A DNA stretch of 64,000 nucleotides, from the NCBI GenBank assembly GCA_022548915.1, contig JAKZES010000001.1, positions 62,001 through 126,000 on the forward strand, given 5' to 3'. Numbering within the stretch: the stretch's first letter is position 1; every line of letters starts with the position of its first letter. Positions 13,638-26,605 of the stretch are shown here, piece by piece. The position numbers were made by a program, and so were the translations under genes. This stretch comes from Verrucomicrobiaceae bacterium E54 (GTDB lineage: Bacteria > Verrucomicrobiota > Verrucomicrobiia > Verrucomicrobiales > Akkermansiaceae). The notes beneath the pieces are model-generated. The model was not told the origin of the DNA, did not search any database, and worked only from the letters and a program-made list of their open reading frames with translations.

Positions 13638-15143
13638 TCATTTGAAGCTTGAGAGGCTTCTGCCGAGTTCATGATGTTTGTCGAACGCACCGGCGAGCTC
13701 TCGAAAGTCGGCGACGGACTCTTCGTAGAGAGGGCGCAAATCCGCGAGTTTTTTTCGGTGGAAGGAGGAGACCAGCGTCTTGTCCGCTTCAGAAAACTGG
13801 TCTTCGGCAAGATCTGCGCAAAATCTGAAGAAGCGTAGGAACGAACGGACTCCTTCCAGCTCTGACTCGCCGGAGGAGAGAGCTGTCAGCACGGAGCCAT
13901 TGGTTTCAAATAGCCCCTTCACCATCGGATGATCTTCCGCCTCGGCAAAGACTTGGTCGAGCAGCATTCGCCCATCGATGGTGACATCGTCAGACCAACT
14001 GAGGCCGTCGTCGTCCGGGGTGACGTGGCTAATGGCAATGAGGACCAAGTGACTTTCCCAGAGGCCTTCGATGGTAGCGGGTTCGCGGGCAAGCTTATCG
14101 AGCTCGACGGGAACCCATTCCAAGTTGTCGGCGGGAATCCACGCGAAGCGGCGGACCTCATGTTGAGTGTTCTTGGCCCAGATTGAAGAGTTGGAGGTTG
14201 CGTAAGAGACTACGCCCACGACTTTCGCCTCTTTGGTGACAATCGGGCCGCCGCTGTTTCCCGGGATGAACTCGCAATCGACTTCGATCTTGTGCGGGCC
14301 AACGCCTTGAATGCGTCCAGGCAGCGTAGACAGGATGTCTTCTGCGCCACTGTCGCCCAAGGCGAAGACTTCCGGCTTCTCTTCAATCTTCTCCCGCGAT
14401 GCGAACTCGAGAAAGGTTTGAGCCGAATCCCTGAAGGGAAACCGGATTAAATCATGTCCCGCCTCCCCGGTAACCACTTCCGGATTTGAGTGAACCGGCA
14501 GCTCGTCGCCCCGAAAAGAGAGAAGCGAAAAATCGGTGGATGTGATCGAATGAGCCGCGGTGTAGATGTAGGTCCGGCCTGCCGAGCGGCCTAGAAATGC
14601 TGTTGAGCGGCTGTCACCGGAGTTGAGCATCAGGACTGCACGCTCCGCTTCTGCTGTCGTGGTCGCGATTCGGACGTCTCCGTCAGGCGGTCTTACCGGG
14701 ATGGGCTCCGGAGATGGTGGAGCGGGTGTGCTGGGTGTGCTGGGTGCGAATGGATCGGTAACAGGCGCCTCCGTAGAGGCGGTCTCCGTGGCGTCGTCCG
14801 GCTTGAGAAGCGCCACGGCCACTAGCAGGCCGACGACCAGCACCGGCACCCCGATCAAGGCCGGCAGCTTGGATGGTGGCTTGCTTTCTTTGCTGGGCCC
14901 GGTTGGAGGCACTCCCTGAATCGGGGAGTTGGCCGGAGCCGGATTTATCTGGAGTATGGGCGGGGCTTCAGGATTGGCCGCAAGGACTTCCGAGAGGGGT
15001 CTGTAACCGGGGAACCGTGGGGAACTAACCGGCGTGTCAGGAGAGAGTGAACCGGTGCGATGGGCGGCTCTCAGCGCGAAAATCGAGTAAGGGCCTTCCT
15101 CGCGACCCTCCCTGAAGACGAAAAAATCTGCGCCCTTCGACAC
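13638..15143 (-). CDS. GYF_2-like domain, TM segment, extracytoplasmic trypsin-like serine protease
   Basis: 501 aa, GTG start. N-term FFVFREGREEGPYSIFALRAAHRTGSLSPDTPV; TM KLPALIGVPVLVVGLLVAVALL; catalytic-triad-like TAAHS, GHDLIRF, PGNSGGPIV. Confidence 0.8.
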   Translation of the reverse strand: MSKGADFFVFREGREEGPYSIFALRAAHRTGSLSPDTPVSSPRFPGYRPLSEVLAANPEAPPILQINPAPANSPIQGVPPTGPSKESKPPSKLPALIGVPVLVVGLLVAVALLKPDDATETASTEAPVTDPFAPSTPSTPAPPSPEPIPVRPPDGDVRIATTTAEAERAVLMLNSGDSRSTAFLGRSAGRTYIYTAAHSITSTDFSLLSFRGDELPVHSNPEVVTGEAGHDLIRFPFRDSAQTFLEFASREKIEEKPEVFALGDSGAEDILSTLPGRIQGVGPHKIEVDCEFIPGNSGGPIVTKEAKVVGVVSYATSNSSIWAKNTQHEVRRFAWIPADNLEWVPVELDKLAREPATIEGLWESHLVLIAISHVTPDDDGLSWSDDVTIDGRMLLDQVFAEAEDHPMVKGLFETNGSVLTALSSGESELEGVRSFLRFFRFCADLAEDQFSEADKTLVSSFHRKKLADLRPLYEESVADFRELAGAFDKHHELGRSLSSFK

Positions 15144-15231
15144 GGTCTAGAGTCCTAACAATCGAGAGGTTGCGATGCAAGACGAATAGTCGGATTGACA
15201 AGTTGCTGGCGTCTTCTGAGTATTGAAAGCG

Positions 15232-24800: not shown

Positions 24801-25670
24801 ATGCGTTCCATTCGGGCAGCTCTGGGGAGTCGACCGGCATCCGCTTTCCTCTCGTTCCAAGACATCATCATGTCGGTGACGGGGGTTGTCATCGTGATCG
24901 CTCTTCTACTCGCCATTGAGATCGACCGCCTTCCGGAACGTGCCTCGCCACCAGGGGAAATTTCTACTGACTCGGACGTGGTCGAGGTCACCCAAGAAAT
25001 GCTCACCAAGGTGCTCGACGAATTGGTGAAGGCGGAAACCCGACTCCAAGCGCTTCTCCTCGCTCGCAGTGAGTCGGAAAGTGCCGATGAGATTCAGGCA
25101 GAAATCGAACGGTTGGAGCGGGAGATCGAAAGGCTCGCCGGAGAAGAAGTAGTCGGAGCGCCCGATGAAGACGTGGACAAGTTGGCTCTTCGCTCAAAAG
25201 GTGTCGAGATCCTCAGGTTGCGAAATGAAATGGAGGATTGCCGTCGTCGGCTTCGCGAGGCACAGGAGCAAATCACCGCACAAGGGCCGGATCTCAGGAC
25301 CCTTGAGGAACAGGTGAAGGCGGCGGAAGCTGCCGTGGCGGCGGCAAGGTTGAAGGGAAGCAGAATTCGTCTGATGCCTGCCAAGTCGGACACGACCAAG
25401 GAGCCTGTGATTGTCGTTTTGTCCCGCACAGAGGTGGTGCTGATGCGATTCGATCATCCTGAGCCCATTCGCGTTCAAAGCCTTACTGGCCTCAATCGGA
25501 TCCTGGCAGACATGCGTTCGACCGAACAGTACTTCGTCCTTTTTGTGAAACCGTCTGGTACTGGTCGGTTCGAGCAGGTGCGACAAGCGGTGATCGGACT
25601 TGGTTTCGAGGTGGGATACGATGCCGTTGACGAGGATGTTGAGATTGTTCTGGAAAGGGGGGAGGAGTGA
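24801..25670 (+). CDS. MotB/ExbD/ZorB-like single-TM coiled-coil protein A
   Basis: N-term FLSFQDIIMSVTGVVIVIALLLAIEI; coiled coil; C-terminal domain EPVIVVLSRTEVVLM...YFVLFVKPSGTGRFEQVRQAVIGLGFEVGYDAV. Confidence 0.65.
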   Translation: MRSIRAALGSRPASAFLSFQDIIMSVTGVVIVIALLLAIEIDRLPERASPPGEISTDSDVVEVTQEMLTKVLDELVKAETRLQALLLARSESESADEIQAEIERLEREIERLAGEEVVGAPDEDVDKLALRSKGVEILRLRNEMEDCRRRLREAQEQITAQGPDLRTLEEQVKAAEAAVAAARLKGSRIRLMPAKSDTTKEPVIVVLSRTEVVLMRFDHPEPIRVQSLTGLNRILADMRSTEQYFVLFVKPSGTGRFEQVRQAVIGLGFEVGYDAVDEDVEIVLERGEE

Positions 25671-26605
25671 AGCGCCGCCTCCATCTGAAGGGCAACGAAT
25701 CTCTCGATCTGATGCTCGACACACTGTCGAACGTATTCGGGGGGATTATCCTGATTGCGTGCCTGCTGGCCCTCATTCCGCGGCACGACAGCCTGACGCC
25801 CATTTTGGAGATTCAGCAAACCAAGGGGGAGATGCTGGAGCGACGCCTTGCCGCGGCGAAGGGTCAGCTCGAGAAAGTGCTGAAGATGATCGCCGATCAG
25901 GAGGACGCAGAGGGACTGGAAAATCCGGAGCTCGCCATGCGGCGGCAGCAACTGAGGGAACTCGCCGAGCAGCTTCGGGAAGAGAAGAAGATCCGTGAAG
26001 ACGCCGAGTATTCGGATGCCGAATTCGAGTTGTTGGCGAGATCTGGTGATCCGGAAGAGATGGAGCGCGAGGTTCAGCGGCTCAAGCGACTGGTCGCCGA
26101 GGCGGAGGGCAAAGCCAAGTCCATCGAGGAGAAATCAGAATTCCTCACCGCGAGACTGGAGGCTCTGAAGTCTGAGGTCGAAGACCTAAAGGACGGCATT
26201 CGGGAGGAGTTGCGCTTCCCGCGAGAGCGTCGAACGGCCAAAGGCCCGTTCCCGGTGATTGTCTGGAGTAATTCGATTTACCCGCTGCACACTGGGGCCG
26301 ACTTTGCCGCCAATCCTGCAGTAAGGCGACTGGAGCTTCCGGAGTCAGAGGGGTTTCTGGCACGGCCCATTATGGGTTCGGGCATCGAAGAACCGTCAGA
26401 TTCGGGGCCATTTATGGCAGCACTGCGGAAGGCGAAGGAAGAAAACCTCTACGTGACGATCTACCTTTACCCCGATTCCCACAAAATCTTCAGGAAGCTG
26501 AAATCGGCGCTGTTTGAAGCGGGGATTGCCTACGGGATCGAGTTCGTCGAGCGAGACCAAAACTTGGCGTTTGGTCCGGATGGCACGAAACCTCCGGAGC
26601 TATAG
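25667..26605 (+). CDS. MotB/ExbD/ZorB-like single-TM coiled-coil protein B
   Basis: GTG start overlapping the previous TGA (GTGA). N-term NESLDLMLDTLSNVFGGIILIACLLALI; coiled coil; C-terminal FPVIVWSNSIYPL...LYVTIYLYPDSHKIFRKLKSALFEAGIAYGIEFV. Confidence 0.65.
   Translation: MKRRLHLKGNESLDLMLDTLSNVFGGIILIACLLALIPRHDSLTPILEIQQTKGEMLERRLAAAKGQLEKVLKMIADQEDAEGLENPELAMRRQQLRELAEQLREEKKIREDAEYSDAEFELLARSGDPEEMEREVQRLKRLVAEAEGKAKSIEEKSEFLTARLEALKSEVEDLKDGIREELRFPRERRTAKGPFPVIVWSNSIYPLHTGADFAANPAVRRLELPESEGFLARPIMGSGIEEPSDSGPFMAALRKAKEENLYVTIYLYPDSHKIFRKLKSALFEAGIAYGIEFVERDQNLAFGPDGTKPPEL

Follow-up and report, generated by a model that had tools for sequence, protein, structure and literature searches.

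A DO-GTPase/GAP1-N2 gene set with a candidate ion-driven motor arm on a genomic island of Verrucomicrobiaceae bacterium E54

We analysed a 64,000-nucleotide stretch of the Verrucomicrobiaceae bacterium E54 genome (contig JAKZES010000001.1, positions 62,001 to 126,000; hereafter the window), in which eight genes at 13638-26605, one on the minus strand and seven co-directional on the plus strand, include a DO-GTPase2-type GTPase, a GAP1-N2 protein and three putative subunits of an ion motor. The genes lie on an inserted genomic island, and six of them form a core that recurs in the same phylum and beyond. With moderate confidence, we interpret the locus as a horizontally acquired, envelope-spanning DO-GTPase/GAP1-N2 system that has an ion-driven motor or channel as its output and a conflict (anti-phage) role. 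The genes are as follows (aa, amino acids; TM, transmembrane segment).

13638..15143, minus strand: divergent GYF_2 - TM - Trypsin_2 protein, 501 aa (Pfam Trypsin_2 and GYF_2)
15232..17010, plus strand: DO-GTPase2-type GTPase, 592 aa, with FHA-like N-terminus and zinc-ribbon cysteines (Pfam and motifs)
17017..19962, plus strand: GAP1, 981 aa, with GAP1-N2, proline-rich linker, TM at ~317-343 and a C-terminal part of ~640 aa (Pfam and topology)
19971..22874, plus strand: CC, a helical single-TM connector, 967 aa (topology and AlphaFold2 model)
22884..23897, plus strand: variable-slot gene, GYF_2-like domain and 5 TMs, 337 aa (weak Pfam GYF_2)
23914..24798, plus strand: MOTA, channel subunit of the MotA/ExbB/TolQ family, 294 aa (Pfam MotA_ExbB and pore threonines)
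24801..25670, plus strand: MB1, MotB/TolR-like single-TM protein, 289 aa (Asp21, AlphaFold2)
25667..26605, plus strand: MB2, MotB/TolR-like single-TM protein and MB1 homologue, 312 aa (hhalign, Asp18)

Open reading frames (ORFs) confirmed this layout as an earlier note on the same DNA had given it, including the intergenic gaps of 6, 8, 9, 16 and 2 bp along the plus-strand operon and the GTGA overlap shared by the final gene pair. The starts of the GTPase and MB1 genes were corrected to ATG codons at 15232 and 24801, respectively.

Conservation of the gene set

GAP1-N2 was found in 33 of 151 genomes of the order, and the loci that we fetched mostly kept the same order, GTPase-GAP1-CC-GYF-MOTA-MB1-MB2. 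In a sample of 401 genomes from the phylum, 36 had MOTA proper, 71 had GAP1-N2 and 34 had both; co-occurrence in 34 of the 36 MOTA genomes, compared with GAP1-N2 in 71 of 401 overall, gave a hypergeometric value of 4e-27, uncorrected for relatedness. Thirty of 38 MOTA loci were within 20 kb of GAP1-N2, with most others accounted for by different contigs in fragmented assemblies. A scan of named genomes yielded 80 loci, distributed over Verrucomicrobiota, Planctomycetota and Desulfobacterota, with carriers such as Brevifollis gellanilyticus, Botrimarina colliarenosi and Desulfamplus magnetovallimortis. Because it recurs across the phylum and beyond, the gene set is far beyond what chance would produce.

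Removal of duplicates left 99 loci, and the 56 with enough flank were used for gene-set counts. GTPase and GAP1 both accompanied MOTA in 53 of the 56; MB1 was present in 55, MB2 in 54, CC in 52 and the GYF gene in 39. With the GYF gene counted as optional, gene order was kept in 44 of 56 loci. The linkage to one MotA-type and two MotB-like genes is conserved, in support of the earlier note, which had named a lack of synteny as a ground for refutation. The constant core is GTPase, GAP1, CC, MOTA, MB1 and MB2, and the GYF slot varies. The set also stays together in rearranged, divergent and convergent versions of the locus (L115, L116/L206, L119, L055/L154 and L060/L150), which argues for shared function and not merely inherited order.

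Individual loci show further arrangements. One genome (G144) has two copies of the system (L055 and L045), and in one of them the motor genes and the GTPase operon point away from each other. At one Desulfamplus locus (L184), several inserted genes separate MB1 and MB2 from MOTA; at another (L185), MB1 and MB2 were not found within the fetched stretch. Locus L126:6799-11109 carries a CC-like gene, a more divergent MOTA, MB1 and MB2, with GTPase and GAP1 absent from the stretch examined.

Proteins of the core and the variable slot

Profile searches supported the assignment of the first two operon genes to the DO-GTPase and GAP1 families, as the earlier note had suggested. The window GTPase matched DO-GTPase2 below the Pfam gathering cut-off (E=2.6e-5; 24.4 bits versus 27 bits), and 21 of 23 family members matched this domain, with FHA in 5 and GYF_2 in 4. 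The GKS, DNAGE and GKxD motifs and the four zinc-ribbon cysteines were invariant in practically all relatives, in keeping with a DO-GTPase, a TRAFAC GTPase recognized by zinc ribbons and a glutamate near Walker B. GAP1 cleared the Pfam cut-off for GAP1-N2 (E=4.6e-19), which was found in 25 of 25 family members, with GAP1-M detected in 10 of these. A single TM was predicted in 88 of 96 GAP1 homologues, beyond which extends a large C-terminal part; the GAP1-N2 domain is presumed to be cytosolic. The linker of GAP1 is proline-rich (14.3% compared with 6.3% in the N-domain; P=7.5e-10).

MOTA matched MotA_ExbB (Pfam, E=6.4e-9) and has three TMs as predicted by a simple hydropathy scan; it had no sequence match in the PDB. 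Its pore residues Thr206 and Thr248 were present in 102 of 102 sequences, a few of the paralogous type described below included. Matching by eye to TolQ, we take these threonines to be the counterparts of T145 and T178. For MB1 and MB2 there was no Pfam family match worth naming, and PDB sequence matches were of coiled-coil type only. Their designation as MotB-like rests on an N-terminal TM with a conserved aspartate, position after MOTA and mutual homology. One N-terminal TM was predicted in 116 of 117 MB1 and 106 of 106 MB2 sequences, and the two families aligned over 258 columns (hhalign P 2.6e-20) with their aspartates in register. Asp21 of MB1 was conserved in 87 of 96 sequences and Asp18 of MB2 in 86 of 88. 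Among 88 loci with both genes, 80 retained both aspartates, 8 retained one and none had lost both, a pattern that would suit an axle formed by MB1 and MB2 together, with a single acidic residue possibly sufficing. The AlphaFold2 model of MB1 (predicted local distance difference test (pLDDT) score 85.3) has an alpha/beta domain at its C-terminus in addition to the TM and long helices.

The E54 genome also encodes a paralogous MotA-like protein of 430 aa (G000:C175:40436-41197; L110:9284-12504) with a zinc-ribbon-like N-terminus and a coiled-coil C-terminus. Two genes on the same strand come after its gene, of which the first bears a weak resemblance to MB1, in a neighbourhood with regulator and rhamnosidase genes and neither a GTPase nor a von Willebrand factor A (vWA) gene. 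MOTA of either type was matched in 88 of 151 genomes of the order, mostly the paralogous type, and it is possible that a locus of this kind was the ancestor of the motor module.

CC was predicted to have a single TM in 105 of 107 homologues. Its AlphaFold2 model (pLDDT 87.8) consists of a helical-repeat-like N-terminal part, a TM at ~370-390, a long helical part and a C-terminal beta-rich domain, so that helical arrays flank the TM on both sides. CC had no Pfam family match worth naming, and a fold search of its model against the PDB gave no significant match.

The slot between CC and MOTA is occupied in the window by a protein that matches GYF_2 only at E=0.02 (Pfam). Among 95 slot and in-operon proteins of relatives, Pfam detected GYF_2 in 32, Trypsin_2 in 7, PrsW in 6, VWA in 2 and rhomboid in 1; RDD, DUF4190, TM2 and DUF805 were further modules of the slot. 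One relative (L043) carries a trypsin domain in this position (E=8.7e-24). A regular-expression scan for trypsin motifs had returned nothing and was replaced by the Pfam scan. The minus-strand protein of the window combines Trypsin_2 (1e-9) and GYF_2 (8.9e-7) with one TM at about residue 95. We considered it as a core component and rejected it, because none of the relatives' loci that we searched held a homologue, which places it outside the conserved core. Of the 'operon plus divergent protease' that the earlier note had described, the seven-gene operon therefore stands and the divergent protease does not, although trypsin-domain proteins recur in the GYF slot.

The genomic island and its proposed function

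The operon is part of a ~16 kb insertion, the left portion of which is omitted by the coordinates 13638-26605. Its remaining features are as follows.

10214-10747, minus strand: coaD, left island flank
10709..26692, no strand: inserted block (genomic island) between coaD and the YdjM-family gene (empty sites, GC content)
10903-11472, 11479-12486 and 12483-13406, plus strand: three island genes upstream of the operon, coiled-coil or unknown (ORFs)
26705-27832, plus strand: YdjM-family gene, right island flank

Two genomes of the same genus (G514 and G133) have an empty site, with 82 and 70 bp between coaD and the YdjM-family gene and collinear flanks. Their DNA aligns to the window up to ~10709 and again from ~26692, and GC content is ~0.47-0.62 inside the block and ~0.65 outside it. 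GAP1-N2 was present in 1 of 19 genomes of the genus, that of the window itself. The block is thus an inserted island. A further congener has ~1.9 kb at the coaD/YdjM junction instead of ~80 bp (G118:C68:143531-145405); the junction may be an insertion hotspot. The three co-directional genes at 10903-13406 have no relatives at the other loci and no meaningful Pfam match, and are putative cargo. An Rfam search gave zero matches.

Island location, patchy distribution and class membership are indirect indications from which we infer a conflict (anti-phage) role, probably in defence rather than housekeeping. The domain architecture suggests how such a system might operate. By analogy with 5:2 stators, five MOTA subunits would enclose an MB1/MB2 heterodimer that acts as the axle. 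Both GAP1 and CC are predicted to have their N-terminal part in the cytosol, to cross the membrane once and to extend into a large, likely periplasmic part; they could detect a signal at the envelope or the arrival of a phage and relay it to the GTPase, the state of which would set the opening of the motor or channel. GYF domains bind proline-rich peptides, making the proline-rich linker of GAP1 a natural guess as the docking site for those of the slot protein and some GTPases, which might in this way recruit proteases or membrane modules. Force driven by the proton-motive force (PMF), or an ion leak, together with proteolysis, would then limit infection or allow the envelope to be repaired. 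A stronger proposal, which we regard as possible but doubtful, is that these loci represent immune machines of a distinct and widespread class. In these, the GTPase switch would act directly on the opening of a 5:2-type proton motor built around a heterodimeric axle, and exchangeable, GYF-delivered proteases would act as second effectors.

Several observations weigh against a motor-driven conflict system. Some GTPase-GAP1-CC sets have no motor genes next to them (L046, L050, L065 and L129 are examples), and the motor is therefore not obligatory. The fold match of MB1 to Escherichia coli TolR (5by4) was weak (E=0.034, TM-score 0.50, rank 3) and only suggestive, because unrelated folds scored similarly. 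Profile comparison of ExbD with MB1 and MB2 was not significant (hhalign P 0.33 and 0.92, respectively), so that the two are not supported as ExbD homologues, and ExbD, MotB and OmpA were absent from the Pfam families listed for MB1 relatives. There was no integrase among the island ORFs, and the island ends had neither a tRNA nor a repeat longer than 7 bp. At the sensitivity used, the GTPase was not found in phages or MOTA in plasmids, and we discarded phage or plasmid carriage on these grounds. A PADLOC scan of 104 ORFs in the relatives' flanks gave scattered, uncontrolled matches (DpdF, PsyrT and others) that were not used as evidence.

Two alternatives draw on the same proteins. In the first, the GTPase responds when the integrity of the envelope is lost, and quality control falls to the channel and the proteases. 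This accords with the presence of DO-GTPases in PSP-type operons, for which a link to membrane stress has been predicted (PMC11237479), with the protease modules of the variable slot and with the size of the C-terminal regions that GAP1 and CC have past their TMs. The absence of GAP1-N2 from 18 of 19 congeners argues against a general stress need, and we consider this explanation improbable. In the second, which has no immune role, a GTPase-controlled PMF motor exerts force on the envelope, the outer membrane or adhesion complexes, or remodels them, by analogy with Agl-Glt or Tol-Pal. The trans-envelope nature of CC and GAP1, the vWA proteins in a few operon slots and the same PSP-operon link speak for such a force machine. 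The patchy, island-borne presence (1 of 19 in the genus, with an empty site) and the variable slot fit it less well, MB1 and MB2 have no detectable ExbD match, and the GTPase is of the DO-GTPase2 type and not an MglA-type small GTPase. We judge this explanation to be unlikely, although it deserves serious consideration.

Comparison with known systems

DO-GTPase/GAP1-N2 systems were described in 2020 by Kaur, Burroughs, Iyer and Aravind (eLife; PMC7159879), whose main text argues that GAP1-N2 systems are conflict systems and names Verrucomicrobiae and planctomycetes among the hosts. The systems in that text resemble the present loci in having a zinc-ribbon DO-GTPase2 upstream of GAP1-N2, a link to the membrane, GAP1-M (found here in relatives) and GYF-trypsin or GYF-TM partners. 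Proteins with GYF fused to a trypsin domain or a TM-rich region, a feature of the planctomycete subset, are present here. Fibronectin type III (FNIII) repeats are given there as a usual companion and not as part of the defining pair; no fn3 match was found in the eight window proteins or among the families listed for GTPase, GAP1, CC and slot relatives. The earlier note had put the locus forward as a candidate undescribed system. This applies to the motor arm, and not to the GYF-trypsin and GYF-TM partners of GAP1-N2, which the main text of PMC7159879 already reports for planctomycetes.

Zorya, a known stator-type phage defence, also has a MotA/MotB-type membrane pair, and the present set could be conceived as a variant in which GTPase-GAP1 replaces ZorC, ZorD and ZorE around ZorAB. 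ZorA2 was the top PADLOC match of MOTA (2.5e-6); the match spans only the channel part (35-126 of 505), and the NCBIfam ZorA2 score was 14.3 bits against a cut-off of 700. MOTA, at 294 aa, lacks the long cytoplasmic tail of ZorA, and there are two different B subunits instead of one, neither with a Pfam match to the OmpA-like peptidoglycan-binding domain (OmpA/MotB) that characterizes ZorB. PADLOC matched no ZorB, ZorC, ZorD or ZorE among the eight window proteins, a scan that did not include the genes at 10903-13406. On these features we rejected Zorya membership, and a Zorya variant is very unlikely; the 'Zorya-like' channel of the earlier note holds only at the level of the superfamily.

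Myxococcus gliding involves the GTPase MglA and the GYF protein GltJ. Its AglRQS motor comprises one MotA-like protein, AglR, and two ExbD-like proteins, AglQ and AglS (PMC3169522), and the shared logic of one MotA-like and two distinct MotB-like subunits favours the envelope force machine. AglQ and AglS, of 162 and 194 aa, are ExbD members in Pfam, whereas MB1 and MB2 are not; the GTPase families differ, and Glt outer-membrane proteins were not found here. A TolQ-like motor of the Planctomycetes-Verrucomicrobia-Chlamydiae (PVC) group, with paired TolR-like genes, a tetratricopeptide repeat (TPR) gene and vWA transducers (Mol Biol Evol 2025; PMC12204202), supports the same alternative. It shares with our loci two heterologous B genes accompanying the motor gene and an adjoining helical-repeat gene; no GTPase or GAP1 is described for it, and vWA was seldom found in our loci (2 of 95 slot proteins).

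The DO-GTPase/GAP1-N2 class is known, and the motor arm is its new part: the main text of PMC7159879, as distinct from its figures and source data, has no MotA, ExbB, TolQ, proton or Zorya, and the PVC motor paper has no GTPase. The combination, which the earlier note had not known from any publication, is likewise absent from that text, beyond which the present loci add MOTA, the two MotB-like proteins and the helical connector CC as a constant set. The output of DO-GTPase/GAP1 systems in Verrucomicrobia and Planctomycetes had been unclear. The gene set joins predicted conflict systems to PMF-driven 5:2 motors, two subjects not joined in the papers we found, and its constancy, together with exact residues and named carriers, makes control of an ion motor by a GTPase directly testable.

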